Shown piece by piece: positions 20,536 through 34,152 of a DNA stretch of 64,000 nt. Numbering within the stretch: the stretch's first letter is position 1; each line of letters opens with the position of its first letter. A program made the translations under genes and the position numbers. This DNA is from Leucosporidium creatinivorum (taxonomy: Eukaryota; Basidiomycota; Microbotryomycetes; Leucosporidiales; Leucosporidiaceae), in the NCBI GenBank assembly GCA_001600635.1, contig BCKL01000014.1:262202-326201 (forward strand), read 5' to 3'. The notes under the pieces are model-generated. The model saw only the letters and a program-made list of their open reading frames with translations, searched no databases and was not told where the DNA came from.

Positions 20536-23191
20536 GGAGGGGTAGAGAGCGGGAAGGAGCGGGAGGAAACGCAGCGAGATTTGGAACCGAGGCTAGCTGT
20601 TCTTGAGTCGAGTCGAGTCGGAGCTGGAGGCGTGTAGCAAGAGCAGGAAGAGGGTATGAAGATGCGAGTTCGGCTCACCGATTACTGCTCTGCTGGCGCT
20701 CGAGTTGATTGAAGAAGCAAGGCGTCAGCAACCCTTGACGACGAGCATTCGGATCCGGCTTCGGCGCTCCAGAACGAGACCAAAGTACCGGCCGACGAGG
20801 GTTAGCATGGATGGCGAGGTGTACGATAGAGCTCCTGCTCTGCTGTACTCCCTCTTCGGTCGAGTGAGACGCTGCTTATGTTGTCAGGTGAAGGGGAGCG
20901 GCGTAGCCTGAGCTTGCTTTCGGCGCTGGCTGGGGTGCCACGTGCTGTAGCCAGACCGAGCTATACGCCTGCTGTAGCAGACCCATCGGCTTAGCTGCTG
21001 CTCTGCTGCACCCTTTCCTGGATGCTAGATGAGCGCGTTTGGCACCTCACCCGCCAAAGCGCCATCCGAATCGATGCTTCGGCGTTCGCAAATTGACGAA
21101 GGTAGCGACCCAAAGGACGTGGAATGGGTGACAATATCGCTCTAAATATCATGCTCTACTGTCCTCCAGCGTTGTAGAGGAGCAACGTCGCTGTCACTCT
21201 TTGGTAACGAGAGAGTTCGAGCTTGCCCTCAGCGCCGGCGTTCGCTACTCAGGCAAGGGTTGGGAGGCAAGCCGCACAATATGCACCTGTTGTAGCTGAC
21301 CAATAGATCTGTTCCTTGCTCTGCTGCACCCCTGCGTCAACGATGGACCAACGCAATTGGCAGCTCGCGCGTCAAGGCGCCAACATCATCGACGCTTCGG
21401 CGCTCGCTCTGCACAAGAGGACGGATATAGCGGAGGTCTGTGAGCAATGACTACAGCATTCAGGGACTACTAGCTACTCTCCTGCTCTGTCTACACGCCT
21501 CGCGAACGAGCGCAAGCCCATCGACGGTGGCACGCAAGCGAAGATTGCCGCTTCGGCGCTCGGGGAGGTGGGAGACCAATTTGGTACACCAGCGGTGGCG
21601 TAGAGCCTAAGTGTAGGCCATCGTATCGCCACAGATGTGGTGCAGCCTCTCTCGAGCTTCCGAAGACCAGAGGACGCCATGTTCGAGCTTCAGCTAGCAA
21701 ACATGCTGGGATTCGGCGCTCGCTACGGCGTCGAGAAGGAGGTGAAGGGAGATTACAGAAGGTGGGAAAGACTCGCCCTAGGCAAGAACTACATCCCTGC
21801 TGCAGCCTCAACGCTCAGACTCGGGAAGAGCACGCACCTGAGCTCGCTCACAGTGCCTCGCGAAGGGAGCGGGGCTCGTGACTGGTTCGGCGTCGCTTGA
21901 AGGGTGACTTTGCAATACACCGAGGTCGTCCAGCAGCCTGGTGTATGGTCTTCGATGTTAGTGGTGCTGCTTTGACCTCGTTGGATGTCAAGATGCCGCC
22001 AGACTGGACGCAGACCTGAGCCGACAGACACCGAGCCTGAATTCGGCGAGCGTTCTCTGTTCGATGCTGGGGACTCCCATGGTCAGCGAGACATCGAGTA
22101 CACGTTGGTAGTAGTCTGTGACAATCCTTCTGCTGCCTACATGAGAAGCGGGCGCCAGACGGCTGGTGAGCAGTCAACACAATCCCGAATTGAGTTGAGG
22201 CGGGGCACTCATACGGCGCTGGCTGAGCCCTCGACGTGCGAAAGGCAAGGCGGGGTTCATTGCTGTGCTTCTGCTGGATGGTAGACTGCACTCCTTCGTG
22301 ACTGGCTACAGCTCGTCCTCTCGCGCAGGACCACCTCGAAGCTCGGCGCTGCCGATTTCGCGGTCGGGCTCTCGCTCGCTCGCGCCTTACGTTTCGAAAT
22401 TGTGGGAGGGGCGGATAGATCGGACCAGGTCGACCTTCCGCGGCAGCCTCGTAAGTCCCCAGCAAACATGGACTGCAGCAGCTGATGTCGCCGCCGCTTT
22501 CCCACGTTGACCGAGACAAAGTCAACCCCCGCTGCCGAAGCCGGATGCCGAGCAGGGAAAGGGTCGATCAGATCAAAGCTGCTCTCGGCGGTTCTGGTCG
22601 AGTCGTTGTCTTCCGCGGCAAGAGAGAGGCGGAGGAACATCTTTAACGCCAAGGCTGCTCCGCTGACCCGCTCAGAATGTTCAATTTGGGGCTGAGGAGG
22701 AGGGCAAGCCCCCTTCGCGCTTCTCGGCGTTGTCCTGCCTTCCCGTCGCCCGCGAGGTATCTCTGGAGGCCGAACACTTACGGCACTGCACTACCATTGT
22801 GCACCAGCGGCCCGTCTCCATCGCATCGGATCCAGCGAGTACCGCTCCCAGCCGCCCGCACTCGCGACCAACCTCGATTCGGCCTTTGCAGAACCTCGGC
22901 CTTCGAGCTCTCGAAGATTCGCTGTGGTACTATTCTGTTGGTAGATAAGCTCGAGACACCAGTGGATTTCAGACAACCCTTTTAGACAACGACTAGGAGG
23001 TACAGAACGAGCTGCAGCGCAAGTGTATGGTGCGGCGAGCGAGGAGAAGCAACACGGGAGGCTGATAGGGACATGCGAAGACGAATGGAGAGTGGGAGTG
23101 AGAGGTGAAGTGTACAGATAGATAGGGAGAGTAGAATGGAGAGGGTATACATGCTATAGGGAAGGAAGAGGGATGGAAGGAAAGAGGCGAC
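20536..23191. other. 2.65 kb gene-free tract between dehydrogenase and HMG-box genes
   Basis: No open frame here has a domain or believable splice pattern. Both flanking genes end into it, so it holds two 3' ends. The left two thirds is the periodic array described separately. The right part (22600-23191) holds weaker copies of the same word and the 3' flank of the HMG-box gene. No transposon ends, terminal repeats or transposase coding were seen. Confidence 0.6.
20620..22360. repeat. Degenerate array of about 160-bp period with two phased words
   Basis: The word TTCGGCGCT or a close variant starts near 20759, 20918, 21076, 21234, 21394, 21551, 21714, 21885, 22041, 22212 and 22342; the first nine steps are 156-171 bp. 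A second word, CTGCTCTGCTGYA or a variant, lies about 73-86 bp after each one: near 20832, 20994, 21149, 21314, 21480, 21633, 21793, 21961 and 22126, with one more near 20684. Between the words the units are poorly conserved; units from 20918 and 21234 align best. This could be a very decayed satellite, or a sequence phase related to nucleosome spacing. The positions were read by eye. Confidence 0.7.
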
Positions 23192-25606
23192 CTAGTGCGC
23201 CGAGGGGAAAGAATACTCCTGCATCACCGGCTGAGTGTAGTAGCCCGTCTGCGCTCCGACCTGAGGGGACATCCACTGCGCCGAGAACCTCCTCTTGTAC
23301 TCGGCCTCGCCGTTGACGTCTCCACAAGCTCCCTCGGCGCCCTCCCACTGCATCTCCATCGGCGCCGGAAGCCACTGCTCGTAAGGGTAGCGAGCGTCGG
23401 TAGGCGAGGCGAGCGAGGACTCGGTAGTCGTAGGAGAGGTCATGTCGAGCCCGGTGTGGTCCACGGTCGACATGGAGAAGCTCGCCGAGGTGCTGGCGCT
23501 GCCGATGGGCTCGAAGCTCGCGTAGGAGCGAGAGGCGTGGGGCGAGTGGGTAGGAGGAGGAGCGAAGATGGAGGGTACAGGTCCAAAGTTGAAGGTCGAG
23601 AAGGCGGCGGGAGCGGACATGGGAGCCTGAGGCAGGTGGTCGAGATGGTTATGCTCGGGGTAGTAGTGGGGCGGAGTCGCCTCGAAGGTAGTCCAGGCAG
23701 CGTAGGCAGCGGGATCGCCGCACGAGTTGCTGTTGTAGCCGATGTCGAGGGCTGTGGTAGCGGCGAGATGGGCGGGGAAGGAGGCGATGGAGGGCGAGGC
23801 TGACATGGGGAAAGTGTCCACGGGGGAGTGGTTGAAGGAGGAGAAAAGCGCATCCATACCGCACTCGAGAGCGAAATCGGACTGGTAGGAGCCCGCTGAA
23901 TGAGGAGTGAAGGACTGGGTGTCGTTGCGAGGGTGATTCGAAAGGCCAAAGTCGAGACCGAGAACGGAGGGCGGCATGTGGACGGTGACGTTCTGGGAGG
24001 TGTAGTCGGTGTCGCTAGTGTCCCGTCGCTTCCGAGGAGAGTAGGGAGAGGTGCGCGAGCTAGGCGCAGTAGCTCGACGAGGGAGAGAGGGGCGGGCGAC
24101 TGAGCTGTTAGGCTCGGCGGCGGGCGTTGATGCTCGAGTGCTGCTGGTCGACGCGACGCCGCCGGCTTTGGGCTTTCGTACGGGGCAGAAGGTGTAGTCT
24201 GAAGGGAATTAAGAAGGTCAGCGGATGCCTCGCTGTGGTGCAGACCGTCCGAATGCTCACCGGGGTAGCGACGGATGTGTTCGGCCTTCTTGAGCCCGGC
24301 CTGCTCCTCGTAGTACTTCCTGACTTGGGGGGCCTCGTCTCGCCACATGTATCCGATGAGCTTGGCTGTGGATGGGAGAACGAGCAAGGTCAGCAAAGCG
24401 CAGCGAAAGGAGACGGAAGAGTCGCCGAAACTCACAGATGTCGGACTGGGGCTTCTTGGAAATCTCCTCGTCAGCTTTGAGGATCTGAATCTGCGCCGAG
24501 CGGTACAGGATCCATGCGTTGGGAGGTCGAGGTGTATGTCCCTCCGGCCTGACTTTGGGCTTCCTCGGTCGAGGTGCGGGAGCAGAGGCCACGGCGGGAG
24601 CAATGTCGTCGACCGACTCGACCGAGGCTTTCCTGGGAACGGCCTTGAGGACGACGGGAGATGCTGGCGCCAGCGCAGGTGGGATGAAGGTGTACTCCTC
24701 CTTGTTCTCGACTTTGATCTGCCTGACGACGTCGTCGTGGTAGGCGAGGCGGCGGGAGAAGGTGGTCGTTGTCGGCGGCGCCGAGTGAGGCATGCTGGCA
24801 TGCGGCGATCCGTTGGAGCGGATATGCGAGCCTTGAGCTGCTTCTCCCGAGTACGGTGAGGCGGCCTCGGCGCCGTTCGAATCTTCGGCGCCGGACTTGG
24901 ACTTGCGAGCCTTCCGGGGCTTCGGCTTGGAGGTGGTGACGGGGCCGGGGCTGCGACGAGGCATGATGGAGGAGTAGCCGCCGCTGAGGAGGACGGAGGG
25001 AACTGAAGGATGAGGGGAAGCTCGAGGAGTGGTGGCGGTGTTGGCGGGAGCGGCTTGGAGGACCGAGGGGACTGGCGAGGCGAGCGAGTCGATGGCGGAC
25101 ATGGGGCTGGCGGCGACCGATGTAGGTGCCGTGGACGCTACAGAGTGGGAAGGAAGGGATTCGACGTCGCGGATGGAGGAGGCGATGGACGACGCCGACG
25201 CGAGAGAAGCGCGAGCGAGCTGGTGGGGGTACATCGGCGACGAAACGATAGGTGCTGCGGCGTGCAGCCTCCTTCCTCCTCCGAAAGCGAACTCGCCAGG
25301 GAAGATAGTCGTCCAAGGTGCGCCTTGCTCGTCGACAGCCGCCTCGGTTCCCTCCTCGCTAGCCCTGGCGCCCTCCGAACTCTGCTGCTCCTCCTCGGTT
25401 CGGTCGGTCGACAACCGGCGGTCGACGCTGAAGAACTCGCGCCAATCGTCTGAAGGGCGCCGTGGAAGCTCGTAGGATGGTTCTGGTGCAACGTGCATGT
25501 CGAAGGGCAGGGCAGAGAAGGATTCGGAGGAGAGCGAGGAGGAATCGAAAGGGAGAGAGGGTTGCGAAGGGATGTCGACGGTTGGGGACAGTGCGTGGTG
25601 GGGCAT
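23192..25606 (-). CDS. HMG-box (MATA-type) transcription factor
   Basis: A sequence-specific DNA-binding protein of the fungal HMG-box class that includes mating and nutrient regulators such as Ste11, Prf1 and Rop1. The box begins TPRPPNAWILYRSAQIQI at about residue 358 and runs through KLIGYMWRDEAPQVRKYY, QAGLKKAEHIRRYPG and YTFCPVRKPK, interrupted by two short introns at conserved-looking points. The N-terminus is long, disordered, rich in Ser, Pro and Ala, with basic patches (KPKPRKARKSKSG). The C-terminus is rich in Ser, Pro, Tyr and Gly and ends MQEYSFPSAH. About 650 residues. ATG at 25604-25606; a CACCAG acceptor 10 nt upstream hints at a leader intron. Which regulator it is cannot be told from sequence alone. 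Confidence 0.88.
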
Positions 25607-27488: not shown

Positions 27489-30400
27489 ATGGCCCTTACA
27501 CCCGCTTCTACACCTCGCAAGCGAGCCAAACTCGAGACCTTCACCAACTCCCTCGACGAGCTCATCTCTCACCTCCAAACGACCAACAGCTCGCTCGCCT
27601 CCGACTCGCCTCCATCGAGCTCCTCGCTCCTCAAGAGTTTGGCCAGCCTCGCTCAAAAACGAGAGGCGTTCGAAGGCAGCTTACGCCGCGTCAAGAAGCA
27701 GCTCGAGGGAGTCGACCAGGCGAAGGACTGGCGAGAGGAGCTCGATCGCGATGGAGTTGAGCTGTGGAACAGGTCTACGGTACTCAAGGACAGTCTGGAG
27801 GGATTTGGAGAGTCGATAGATCAAGACACGGGCAGAGATGCGGTAGCGCAGAGTGAGCTTCTCTTCGCGGGCTGCTCGCTGGCTACTGGCTCGCTCGCTC
27901 GTGGGAGGGGAGGTAGCTGACGGTCTGCTTGGGGTCTCAGTGCGGTTTAACGCCTTCAAAATCATCTCTCTGGGGGCTCCCGAGGCGCTGGAGGAGAAGG
28001 GTGCGTGCTTGCGAGCAGCTCATAGTCGACGCTCAGCGAGCTGACTATCCTACTCGTCTGCAGACCACGTCGCGCTCCTCAGCCTTTCCACGAAGACCTA
28101 CAACGCTCTCTGTTCCTCTAACAACCTCTCAGTCGCCGACGAGATCCTCAGCGCGGGAGCAGAGCACTGCGCCGCCATTTCCCTCCGCTCACCGGTCGGC
28201 GGCTCGGGAGGCGCTTGCGCTTCCACACCCATCTCCAGCGTCCGGACTGTACTCGCGCACTACGCCACTCGCATCACTCTCAGCGTCAAGAGCGGCAAGA
28301 TGGGAGTCGCCGAATGGATCAAGAGCAAGATCAAGGACGAGCTTCTCGGCCAACTGAAGGAGCGCGAGGTGCGCCGAGTGCGATCTAACGTGTTCGGGCA
28401 CTGACTCCTACTCTTGACTACAGATCTGCAAGCTCGCGAGTACCTCTTGCGAAGCAGGACGATGGCTGCTCGCTCCGAAAGCGCAGAAGGAGGCCAAGTG
28501 GGCGGTGGTGGACGAGGGAGATTCGGCGAAGGCGCTGCCTTGGCTACTGTGGGCGTTGGAGCTGCTGGAAGGTGCAGGAGGAGGAGATTCGAAATCCATG
28601 CAGGTGCGTGCTGCGACAGCGGGTCTGCGATACCAGCTGATTCGCACCGCTTCCCAGATCAACGTCCTCGCCGTGCTCGCCGAAGCGTATCTCGACCCGT
28701 CGGCGGGACCATCTCGTCTGGAGAAAGCCGAGGAGACCATTGTGCAGTTAATTGTGAGCTTTTAGAGCGCCCTCAACTTCTGCTCTTCGACCCTGACTGT
28801 CCGCTGCAGCGCCTTCAACCAACCGGCGCTCTTTGGCGGAGCCGCATCAAGCTTCTCATTGGGCGTAGTGCAGGCGACGGCGAGATCACCAGAGGTACAC
28901 CGCACATCATACCTATTCGCATGCCACTGACCCGCCTCGACTCTAGCTTTCGTTGAGGCTTCGACCGTTTCGCCTTGGACCGAGGATCAAGGTGCTCGGT
29001 GAGCTTATTCTGAGGGCTACTCGAGCTTCCCTCGATCTACGCATGTGCCCACGCTGACTGGAGCGTATCGCTTGCGCACGTTAAGGCTACTCCATCAGCT
29101 CCACAAGCTTCCAGACAATCGGTAGAAGTGCTCATTGTTCTCTTCCCCCGAGCCACCGCCCTGACTCGCCTCGATCCCACCCTTCCCCCCATTCAGACGG
29201 TCGCTCAAGTCCGGCATTTGTGAAGCCCTCGTCGACGTCGCTATCCAGATGCAGCAACGGGAGCCTTCTACTCCAGCTTCAATGAGCGAGAGCTCGGCCG
29301 GCGCCTCAGCGCCTGCATCGACTTTCCTGGCTCAAGTGGTCATGTCGGCGGTTCTCATCATCAAAAGCGGATTGCTACTGTCCAATCTGTTTTGTCGTAT
29401 CTCCGAAGGTGTGCTTCTCTCCTCTTGGCAGCTCAGAGCACCCGCTGATCTCGCTCGCCTCTCCACAGCTGCGCCGAGCTTTCAGCTCGACCTCCAATCG
29501 ACCTTCCTCTGCATCACCTACATCTGGCGTTCAGCGGATAAGGCGCATGCTGAGGGGAAGACCGAGGAGGCTGCTGAGCTCTACATGGCTTGCACGAGCC
29601 CGATGCTTCGAGCGTTGACGCTGAGCAAGTCGTTCAGGTGAGTTTTTTCCTTGGGTTGTCGCTCGAAGCCGAGCCTTACATTGGCTTTGTATGTCTCTGC
29701 AGGAAAGCGGCGCTCTGTTATGGCGAGCTCAAGAAGTACGACGAAGCCGAGAAGATCATCGCTCACGACCCGAGTGCGAGAGGCCGCTTCGTCCGCATCT
29801 ACAACCTCCTCGGTGCCGGCAAGCATGATGACGGTTAGCGTTCGCTCTGATTAGTGCTCTCGACATCGCGCTGACCGTCTGTTCCCGACAGCGGCCGCCC
29901 TCGTCGACTCGATGATCCACGCCGAAGGTTTCTGTCTCCAGCTCCTCCTCTGGACGGCCAAGGCGGCAGCAGAGGCAGGCTCGGACGCGCTCATCTGCAA
30001 GTTGTACGAGTTATTGGGCTCCTACTGCCTTCGGGAGGACGAGGCGGCGATTGGCGTTGACTGCATGGTCGTCTTTCGATGAGTGGAGCGCGGCGCATGC
30101 TCTTTGCCGGAGAAGCTGACTTGTACATGGTCTCGCAGACAACTCATCCGAGCTCTTATGAATCGACTTGCCGAAGGAGGAGCGAACGAGTGCGTGACTG
30201 CTTCAACGATCAAGCTCGGACCAAGCTGACTTTTCAAGCAGCGCCGAGCTGCTTCCTTTGCTTCGTGGTCATTTTGCGGCTGGTGAGCGTCTCGAAATCT
30301 TTTCAATCGTATTGTCTCGATCTCAGGCTCACTGTGAGGTTCTGTTGCAGCCCTCAAACTCGCTACAAGTCTCGCCGAGAAATCGCCCATTCCCGAGAAG

Positions 30401-31840: not shown

Positions 31841-32056
31841 GAGCTGTTCGCGTTGATGATGATCGTGCTTGTTGTGTGTCAGAGACGTCTGACATCGACC
31901 CTTGCTCTCGGCGTGCTCATTTCGGTGAGGAGGCTTCGTTACCGAGAGAGCAGAGATCGGCGCAGCGGCGCTCTCGAGGCTGCTCTCAATGAGCACAACA
32001 TGACGACCGTGGACTCTGATGGTACTGCAGGGGTTACTAAACTCTTTCCGTCTCTT

Positions 32057-32285
32057 TCAATCAGTGTAAGCTCCGAGATGGGCGCTCTTGACGTCCTGCG
32101 AAGCGAAGACCGAGGGAGCGCCGAGATGATCAGCTCGGCTCCTCGACAACTCCTTCGACAGCCTGAGAACTCACCCTGGTGTAACGATAGAGGACTCCAC
32201 GGGTGTAGAGAGGCTTTGGAGCCGTCCACTTGGCCTTGCGAGCCGCCATTGTCGTGGCAGGGGAAGCGTCGCCGACGGCGGGCAT
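32057..32285 (-). CDS. Small unknown ORF, two exons
   Basis: Starts MPAVGDASPATTMAARKAKW, continues TAPKPLYTRGVLYRYTR and, after an intron with a normal GTGAGT donor and CGCAG acceptor, ends DVKSAHLGAYTD at a TGA (32057-32059). About 50 residues, basic, with no signal peptide or membrane segment. I do not recognise it. It lies just downstream of the truncated ILV3-like exons on the same strand, and a splice from those exons into this frame is possible (TCGG to CTACGCGG), so it may be the tail of a chimeric transcript instead of a separate gene. Confidence 0.35.
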
Positions 32286-32399
32286 GGTGGTGGACTGCAA
32301 GGTCCTTTTCACTTCACTGCTGAGCTCCAACCCACTCCGCGTAGCTTGAGCACTCACATTCGAGGAAGTGTCAGTCGCCGTTCAAGAGAAAAGGGAAGC

Positions 32400-32942
32400 G
32401 AAAGCCGAACCCGAAACGCCGACGGTCGCGTGTTGCAAACCAACGAGACCCTCGAGCTCGCAGCCCTCCTTGACCTTCTGAGCAAGTGCGTCGAGGTGGT
32501 TGTTGCACTGCCAGGCCATGTAGAGGTCAGCTCGACGTGTTCGGCGCTCATTTCAGCGAAGAGAGACTTACGGGATTTCCTTCCCACCACACGGCGCTGA
32601 TCCCAATCTGAGGCTTGGACATGTCTTCGTGTTTCATTCCGCTGGCGTAGAGCATGGCTCGAGCTCCACCTGGACACAGGGACGGCGACGACGACGAGAG
32701 GAAGTGGGAGAGGTGGGGAGAGTATCGGCAAGGTCAGCGGAGCTCAGCGACGACACGGGGGAGCACGGACATACCCATGGCTACATTCTGAGTGAGCAGG
32801 CGCGAGTACTTGTTCAATACGGGGCCCTCGCCAGTGGAGGAGGAGCGGGGAACGGGGTGACTTTGGAGGGGCGAAAGGGAGATCAGCGAGCTGTACAAGA
32901 GCAGGGGCGCAGATTCGAAGAGCCTACATATCGACAGACATG
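32400..32942 (-). pseudogene. Truncated 5' copy of an ILV3/IlvD-type dehydratase
   Basis: Four exons code for the first part of a dihydroxy-acid dehydratase: MSVDIHPVPRSSSTGEG, then VLNKYSRLLTQNVAMG, GARAMLYASGMKHEDMSKPQ, IGISAVWWEGNP, CNNHLDALAQKVKEGCELEG and LVGLQHATVGVS. These match the conserved N-terminus of the family (LNKYSR, GISSVWWEGNPCN, GVSDGIS). The three introns have normal signals, so this is a genomic copy and not a processed one. The match stops where GVSDGISMGT is expected; an in-frame stop follows within about 12 codons, and no later ILV3 block exists on this strand. About 95 of some 600 residues are present. No complete ILV3 lies in the window. Confidence 0.75.
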
Positions 32943-34152
32943 ATCTTGTGTGCTCTGGCTACTAGGGTGAAGTGGGAGAGCAAGAGAGGCGCCTGAAGCC
33001 GTTTTAGCGGCTCCCCCCACTCCTTGACCGGGTGAGCGCCGCCGGCTCGGCTGAGGAGGGTTGGAAAGGGCGTAACCTACGAGCAGCTATTGGTCGAGCA
33101 AGGCTACGCGAGAACTGAGTCGTTTGATGCAGCTGTTCAAGAGCAGGAGCGAGAACGAGATGAGGATCTCAAATCGACTCGCTCCCTTCTCTCCTCGGTG
33201 CTCGCTCCTCTCCCTCACCGCTCCTTGCGAGTTGCATTGGAGGCTGAAGGCGAGGCGTGGCGAGGTGACACAGTTTCTGTAGCTGAGTGAAGCAAGAGGG
33301 CTCGATCGCTCGGCTGTCGCTGTACCCCTCGACGTCGCCTCGAGGCGCTGCGAGAGTTCGGCGCTGGCGATGCGCCTCAGTCCTAGCAACGCTGTTGAAT
33401 CGGGTCTACGGGAAGTGGGGCTTCCTGACACCTAAATCATACGCGCGCAGACACTTCCGCAGAGGTCTGCCTCGCGTCAAACCACCTTGAAAAGCTCATC
33501 CGCCGTCATCGCCGAACTCAGCATGTACAGCGAAGGTGAGCCCAGAATCACGGCTGATCAAGCCAAGATGTATTACTGGCACTGTAAGGAAGCCTCGGCT
33601 GTTTTTGATGCTCTTTCAATCCTTCAGTGCACCTATTCAAGATCGAACCTCGAGCGCCGAGCCGAATCCGCCTTCGCTCGCTCTGCTGTCGGTCACGGTC
33701 ACCCCACTCTCTTGATGAGAGCAGTGAATCTGGACAAGCTGTTGCTGAAGCTCCGTCTCGCAGAATGAGCTGCAGAAACAGCTGCCGACTCGCCCTTTCG
33801 CGAGCGCCGTAAAAGGGTCTATCGCTCGCCGAAAAGCTACAGATCTGAAATGAACCGAGCTATTATGTGCTTAGGATGATTTGTATAGAGCCCGATACCA
33901 CCCTACACAAGAGGCCCCTGCTCACTGCCCCCTTCGACGGCGCGCTCGAGCGCTCGCTCTCCTCCTTTACCTTTCTCCCCATTCTCCTCGCTTCTCATCT
34001 CGCCGTCTTTCGACCAGAGGCCAGCACACCGTACATAAGGACCCGCTTCGACCCACAGCCCTACGCATACCCACCTACAGCAGGAGGACTTCAACACACC
34101 CTAGCGCGCTCGACCTTCTTCTCTCTCCCTCGCCAACAGCACACTTTAAAGG
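32943..34152. other. 1.2 kb region with possible exon-like frames but no secure gene
   Basis: Separates the ILV3 fragment from the chitin deacetylase gene. On the plus strand a frame near 33064-33270 reads VTYEQLLVEQGYARTESFD followed by a charged helical stretch, and a second near 33450-33760 reads NHLEKLIRRHRRTQHVQR. Codon choice looks coding in both, but I found no in-frame ATG or acceptable splicing to join them, so they may be remains of a gene. The word TCGGCG or its complement recurs near 33036, 33194, 33358, 33510, 33654 and 33804. The right part is the deacetylase promoter. Confidence 0.35.

Follow-up and report, generated by a model that had tools for sequence, protein, structure and literature searches.

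The window analysed here, a 64,000-nucleotide stretch of the Leucosporidium creatinivorum genome (G000:C14:262202-326201, in an assembly of 27.7 Mb and 63 contigs), contains an intergenic array of short recurring words flanked by a short-chain dehydrogenase gene on the + strand and by a - strand open reading frame ending at 23192. A dehydrogenase had been proposed as the neighbor of the array in an earlier note on this DNA, and two of the three exon pieces supplied match PF00106. No open reading frame runs across the whole array (the longest listed within the intergenic region encode 239 aa, 21848-22567, -, and 177 aa, 22257-22790, -), and a coding repeat was rejected. A structured RNA array was likewise rejected, as nothing in the window reached an Rfam gathering score and the three matches in the region, all far below gathering, are attributed to chance. 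ARAGORN found no tRNA genes in the window. Beside the array, a predicted protein on the - strand (24257-25606) includes a stretch that by eye resembles part of an HMG box; it has no Pfam match, perhaps because an intron splits it.

The phased words of the array

The first word, TTCGGCG, is present at eight of the ten places for which the earlier note had reported it, and the remaining two hold one-base variants of TCGGCG; the exact 9-mer TTCGGCGCT occurs at five of the ten. The reported coordinates proved accurate to within 2 bp. The regular spacing was borne out as well, with steps of 159, 159, 156, 162, 156, 160, 174, 156, and 170 bp measured from the first base of the 7-mer (156 to 174 bp overall). 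The places are as follows.

20760-20766, + strand: TTCGGCG, word 1; predicted nucleosome linker, from word position and genome-wide phasing
20919-20925, + strand: TTCGGCG, word 2; predicted linker
21078-21084, + strand: TTCGGCG, word 3; predicted linker
21235-21240, + strand: CCGGCG, one-base variant of TCGGCG in the place of word 4; predicted linker, from the sequence
21396-21402, + strand: TTCGGCG, word 5; predicted linker
21552-21558, + strand: TTCGGCG, word 6; predicted linker
21712-21718, + strand: TTCGGCG, word 7; predicted linker
21886-21892, + strand: TTCGGCG, word 8; predicted linker
22042-22048, + strand: TTCGGCG, word 9; predicted linker
22212-22220, + strand: TACGGCGCT, variant in the place of word 10 (ACGGCG at 22213); predicted linker, from the sequence

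Between 20600 and 22400, nine TCGGCG words lie on the + strand, with a longest chain of five and six pairs at 150 to 178 bp. The proposed comparison with dinucleotide shuffles favored a real array: among 2,000 shuffles the longest chain was two and the largest number of pairs was one, so none equaled it. When nine words were placed at random (5,000 draws), at least six pairs arose at a frequency of 0.0008.

A second word had been described as recurring half a step after the first in almost every unit. Searching with a loose pattern that admits variants, we found nine distinct places in 20600-22400, and the description holds for part of the array. The second word lies within 6 bp of six of the nine midpoints between first words (starts at 20838, 21001, 21154, 21319, 21796, and 22129, for midpoints at 20842, 21001, 21159, 21318, 21802, and 22129), but three midpoints are empty (21477, 21635, and 21967) and three of the nine places lie elsewhere (20688, which is about half a step ahead of the first word, 20968, and 22270). 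The midpoint places include the following.

20838-20847, + strand: CTCTGCTGTA, second word; predicted core centre, midpoint 20842
21001-21010, + strand: CTCTGCTGCA, second word; predicted core centre, midpoint 21001
21154-21163, + strand: CTCTACTGTC, second-word variant; midpoint 21159
21319-21328, + strand: CTCTGCTGCA, second word; predicted core centre, midpoint 21318
21796-21805, + strand: CCTGCTGCAG, second-word variant; midpoint 21802

The DNA between the words had been called mostly unconserved, which is largely correct, but two segments one double step apart are alike. Base identity across the array region is highest at a lag of 318 bp, that is, 2 × 159, and the segments concerned are these.

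20999-21089, + strand: first copy of a 318-bp (two-period) tandem duplication; 74% identity over 91 nt
21317-21407, + strand: second copy of the 318-bp tandem duplication; 74% identity over 91 nt

Among pairs of array units, U3-U5 scores 87, and the best of 2,972 TCGGCG-anchored null pairs scores 60; U1-U3, U2-U4, U5-U6, and U5-U7 have p values of 0.003 to 0.018 against the same null pairs. Self-alignment of the units, which had been proposed as a check, gave a divided answer: five of the 45 unit pairs fall at p < 0.02, where about one is expected by chance, and four of these five lie at a lag of 316 to 318 bp. We read part of the array (U1 to U7) as a possible old duplication of a two-nucleosome unit. 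Tandem Repeats Finder did not report the array, and a DNA search for copies elsewhere matched the array alone. Beyond its own units, a profile of U1 to U7 gave weak matches, with best E values of 0.0033 in the window and 0.0081 in 20 further loci (L010 to L029), and we read these matches outside the array as shared vocabulary.

TCGGCG is phased at about 155 bp across the genome

A TCGGCG lattice of about 155 bp extends through the genome. Autocorrelation at 150 to 170 bp, set beforehand as the test of the periodicity, is strong outside the array, which supports, genome-wide and at the level of sequence, the idea of a DNA code at nucleosome spacing. Once the array is masked, the window and two 10-kb flanks (293 words) show peaks at about 155, 310, and 465 bp, whichever relative orientation is counted. 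Period strength in this set is 8.35 at a best period of 156 bp, compared with 1.29 ± 0.48 (maximum, 3.53) in 200 local dinucleotide shuffles, and TCGGCG is 3.3 times commoner than in shuffles (293 versus 89 ± 9). These results are independent of the selected loci L010 to L029, which form part of a larger sample of 872 words from 23 sequences (the window and 22 of 37 loci, namely, L010 to L029, L036, and L037; 264,020 bases, 30,201 of them masked). There, peaks lie near 150, 312, 465, 620, 760, 920, and 1090 bp, and the best of the periods tried (140 to 180) is 154 bp; because L010 to L029 had been picked for holding three phased TTCGGCG words, their centers were masked, and some bias may remain.

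Counts of the longer word agree. Same-strand TTCGGCG pairs over the whole genome number 447 at lags of 150 to 168 bp and 326 at 307 to 325 bp, compared with 79 at 200 to 218 bp and 128 at 110 to 128 bp; the reversed word, used as a control, gives 9, 8, 8, and 7 pairs, respectively. Since duplicated sequences occur among the listed places, the TTCGGCG pairs are not all independent. Convergent pairs, counted at 150 to 168 bp alone, number 177. A genome search for three TTCGGCG words at steps of 147 to 175 bp found 35 places, 18 forward and 17 reverse, and 0 for the reversed-word control. Four of the 35 are the array itself, and the majority of the others look unrelated by eye.

Phased chains of at least four words number 32 in the 23 sequences, selected centers included; 200 random placements gave 3.9 on average and never more than 12. 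The longest chain has eight words (at a selected locus) and the longest random one has ten, so that chain length alone is weak evidence and pair counts are more telling. Among the 25 of 32 chains listed, further four-word chains in the window lie at 1419-1891, 28196-28678, 31957-32417, and 33358-33827.

The lattice is not explained by tandem copying, since of 14 pairs of adjacent phased TTCGGCG words elsewhere none rose above the 95% homology threshold, and at lags of 141 to 160 bp there is no clear excess of exact 10-mers (27, versus 21 and 18 in the neighboring bins); exact 12-mers (7 versus 2 and 2) are too few to judge. This bears on whether the flagged array is merely a decayed tandem satellite. 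The U3-U5 match at 318 bp, which exceeds every null pair, speaks for a satellite, as does the occurrence in this genome of further tandem repeats whose units measure 156 and 154 bp, but the same word is phased genome-wide in non-homologous DNA. We consider the satellite very unlikely as the whole explanation, while it remains true of part of the locus. The old satellite of the earlier note accordingly survives for some homologous units, mainly at 316 to 318 bp, and leaves the genome-wide pattern unexplained. The array is likely to be one strong local example, a dense run, of the genome-wide lattice.

Other repeats in the genome have units near the same length. At L010:3677-4795 (G000:C27:193176-194294) lies a clean tandem array with a 156-bp unit and a 314-bp double unit, most units of which hold TTCGGCG or CTCGGCG by eye; diverged copies in opposite orientations are found at C27:256907-259545 and C27:270927-273460. 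It was rejected as a copy of the flagged array, from which it differs in sequence, and its reported matches are all on C27. Beside it, on the - strand at about 4830-4935 of L010, is what looks by eye like a tRNA-Leu gene, where ARAGORN reports none. Another tandem repeat, at L011:8259-8554 (G000:C5), has 1.9 copies of a 154-bp unit. In all three repeats (the flagged array and those on C27 and C5) the unit measures one or two lattice periods, suggesting that the duplications had been cut in linkers.

Word specificity and the composition wave

Among the 83 hexamers that reached 60 or more pairs at the compared lags (rarer ones were dropped), TCGGCG ranks first by its own autocorrelation, with a z score of 9.6 in the window set and 15.1 in the other loci; z scores have a spread of 1.84 across the 83 and hence are not standard normal. 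Ranks two to four go to CTCGGC and CGGCGC, which both overlap TCGGCG, and to CGAGCG. Measured from TCGGCG anchors, the word occurs 8.8 times as often as its composition predicts when in phase and 2.1 times as often when out of phase, and the in-phase ratios of related words are 0.7 for CCGGCG, 1.1 for GCGGCG, 1.3 for ACGGCG, 1.9 for TCGACG, and 2.8 for TCGTCG, in a comparison that favors TCGGCG because phase is defined from TCGGCG itself. TCGCCG reaches 4.2 in phase but overlaps TCGGCGA on the opposite strand. CCGGCG is not over-represented, yet its density in phase is 2.68 times that out of phase; for GCGGCG the figure is 1.85, and TCGACG and TCGTCG are barely phased. The extended consensus is approximately YTCGGCGMTGG, with base preferences over about 11 positions: C or T before the word, and A or C, then T, G, and G, after it (558 non-coding words).

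A broader wave of composition accompanies the word. Around 675 anchors, CG, GC, and CC/GG run in phase with TCGGCG, and TA (modulation, -0.29) and AT (-0.15) run in antiphase. The modulation of the CG dinucleotide, 0.12, is far below the 0.65 of TCGGCG, which is the anchor word itself. GC content is 62.3% in phase and declines smoothly, reaching 54.8% at half a period, as TpA rises, and TA is densest midway between two words (228 candidate cores). The extreme antiphase hexamers include TCTGTA, CTGTAC, and CTACAC, which resemble the second word of the earlier note. No 10-bp TA periodicity was found around the midpoints, and a rotational 10-bp code was rejected on this ground.

In predicted non-coding runs of at least 1.5 kb (238 words), 58 pairs fall at lags of 141 to 160 bp, and the troughs at 61 to 120 and 201 to 260 bp hold 2 to 7 pairs per 20-bp bin. 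By a crude, self-trained coding prediction, the peak-to-trough ratio is 5.56 for noncoding-noncoding, 2.89 for coding-noncoding, and 1.46 for coding-coding pairs. TCGGCG and TA-rich words do occur inside stretches that look intron-like by eye, as they would if the period reflected regular exon and intron lengths; because the contrast peaks in the long non-coding runs and persists over several periods, such an origin is hardly credible.

The wave could also be a by-product. Remodelers would place stable nucleosomes, differences in mutation or repair between linker and core would print the composition, and TCGGCG would merely report it. A mutation gradient would give just such a smooth fall in GC and rise in TpA, and the mild phasing of other CG-rich words (CCGGCG and GCGGCG, above) fits as well; moreover, the available text of one study treats selection versus differential DNA stability as the source of such waves as an open debate (PMC4422121). 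We nevertheless regard a by-product as unlikely, given that the signal is strongest for TCGGCG, at 8.8 times expectation against 0.7 for CCGGCG, 1.1 for GCGGCG, and 1.9 for TCGACG, that the scan by own autocorrelation also ranks TCGGCG first, and that the base preferences span about 11 positions.

Nucleosome polarity and candidate readers

A lattice of about 155 bp that is genome-wide and blind to strand and homology is the imprint expected of nucleosomes, and no other structure of this period is known to us. Nucleosomes are the probable source, and the genome likely holds a nucleosome lattice written in its DNA, with a repeat of about 155 bp. The nucleosome code suggested in the earlier note thus gains support in the letters themselves, with the link to nucleosomes drawn from the period and from maps of another fungus.

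That fungus is the basidiomycete Mixia osmundae, for which the portion of the MNase study available to us reports an excess of CC, CG, GC, and GG and a deficit of AT and TA in linkers (defined as dinucleosome midpoints), and an enrichment of AT and TA in cores (PMC3376729). Its dinucleosome DNA peaks at 300 nt (PMC3376729), which by arithmetic (300 - 147) gives a repeat of 153 bp, near the period here. The same partial account notes a tendency for mononucleosome centers to be G/C-rich (PMC3376729), which opposes a word placed in the linker. Taken together, these maps, from another species, mostly support the word-in-linker polarity. The reverse arrangement, with TCGGCG at the nucleosome dyad and TA-rich DNA in the linker, would suit those G/C-rich centers and the many eukaryotes in which cores favor GC-rich and linkers AT-rich DNA; against it stand the Mixia dinucleotides, with CC, CG, GC, and GG in linkers and AT and TA in cores, and we judge it rather unlikely. 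The odds that we attach to these rival readings are not mutually exclusive.

With the word in the linker and a TA-rich core, TCGGCG would mark a short linker and the TA-rich stretch a core center, so that each histone octamer would be confined between two TCGGCG words. Most likely, octamers would be kept off TCGGCG either by a sequence-specific protein that is abundant and perhaps belongs to the Zn2Cys6 class or by a mark on the DNA, for instance CpG methylation by the Dnmt5 relative of this genome, and in both cases flexible TA-rich DNA would favor the core. Either the protein or the mark could be the reader. We propose tentatively, as a possibility on the doubtful side, that such a linker protein or mark recognizes TCGGCG genome-wide, no more than once in each nucleosome, so that nucleosome positions in much of the non-coding DNA are spelled out by a punctuated one-word code, and that the resulting order determines how large the units of new tandem duplications are.

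An exon-by-exon search of the genome, which may have missed others, gave a single PF00145 match at an E value of 0.001 or better, and all four tested segments of that gene region match PDB 7r76 best, which points to a Dnmt5 relative. The PDB label of 7r76 is Rad8; we take the entry to be Cryptococcus Dnmt5. In the excerpts at hand, the ATPase part of Dnmt5 is described as related to Rad8, with cryo-EM structures of the Cryptococcus enzyme (PMC13297926), and in algae a correlation is reported between Dnmt5 and linker methylation (PMC9998398). A linker-histone H1 domain (PF00538) is matched at 26.2 bits, above the cut-off, though partially (28-72 of 74). MT-A70 family matches (RNA or 6mA methyltransferases) lie at G000:C29:282940-283594 and C12:683011-683145. 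The CpG observed/expected ratio is 1.11 in phase versus 0.91, and with no in-phase CpG decay there is no sign of mutagenic linker methylation; this and the scant phasing of TCGACG and TCGTCG argue against a simple methylation story.

The comparison with known systems, made from partial texts of the sources, gives several likenesses. Dnmt5 linker CG methylation also involves CG-rich stretches at the nucleosome period and a Dnmt5 relative (PMC5728721, PMC12633428, PMC9998398), but here a single word is far stronger than CG generally, and the pattern is known from sequence alone. The linker-methylating species with Dnmt5 lack the canonical H1 winged helix in all but one case described (PMC5728721), whereas a partial H1 domain is found here. 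Mixia shares the linker and core dinucleotides and a repeat near 153 bp, and the consulted part of that study describes no phased hexamer (PMC3376729). In Schizosaccharomyces pombe, the Zn2Cys6 factor Mca1 has a TCGGCG element, the same hexamer, which in the text seen is a promoter element of one gene rather than a genome-wide lattice (PMC6080790).

A further likeness is to the nucleosomal signatures of fission and budding yeasts, in which composition follows nucleosomes and differs between species (PMC4422121). As far as that account was available, they are average profiles taken from mapped nucleosomes; here, one hexamer gives a several-fold contrast in raw sequence over about seven periods. 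The yeast signatures are present in genic and intergenic DNA (PMC4422121); the coding-coding ratio here is 1.46 under a crude coding prediction. A composition oscillation at the nucleosome repeat, as in a DNA-encoded nucleosomal signature, is present here in the genome-wide word pairs and in the loci. Our literature search, which covered titles and the openings of abstracts with partial coverage, found no report of TCGGCG as a linker word. The lattice is probably a variant of DNA-encoded nucleosome organization, unusual as a near-punctuated single-word code.

The share of sequence, as opposed to remodelers and barriers, in positioning nucleosomes in vivo has long been disputed, and the known sequence effects are mostly small averages. 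If the nucleosome reading is true, a lattice readable as a hexamer would offer a natural system in which the word could be changed and the nucleosome watched. Nucleosome maps would then be predictable from sequence alone, and the evolution of nucleosomes could be traced across related fungi. In this fungus, a plan of DNA packing seems to be written in the sequence itself.
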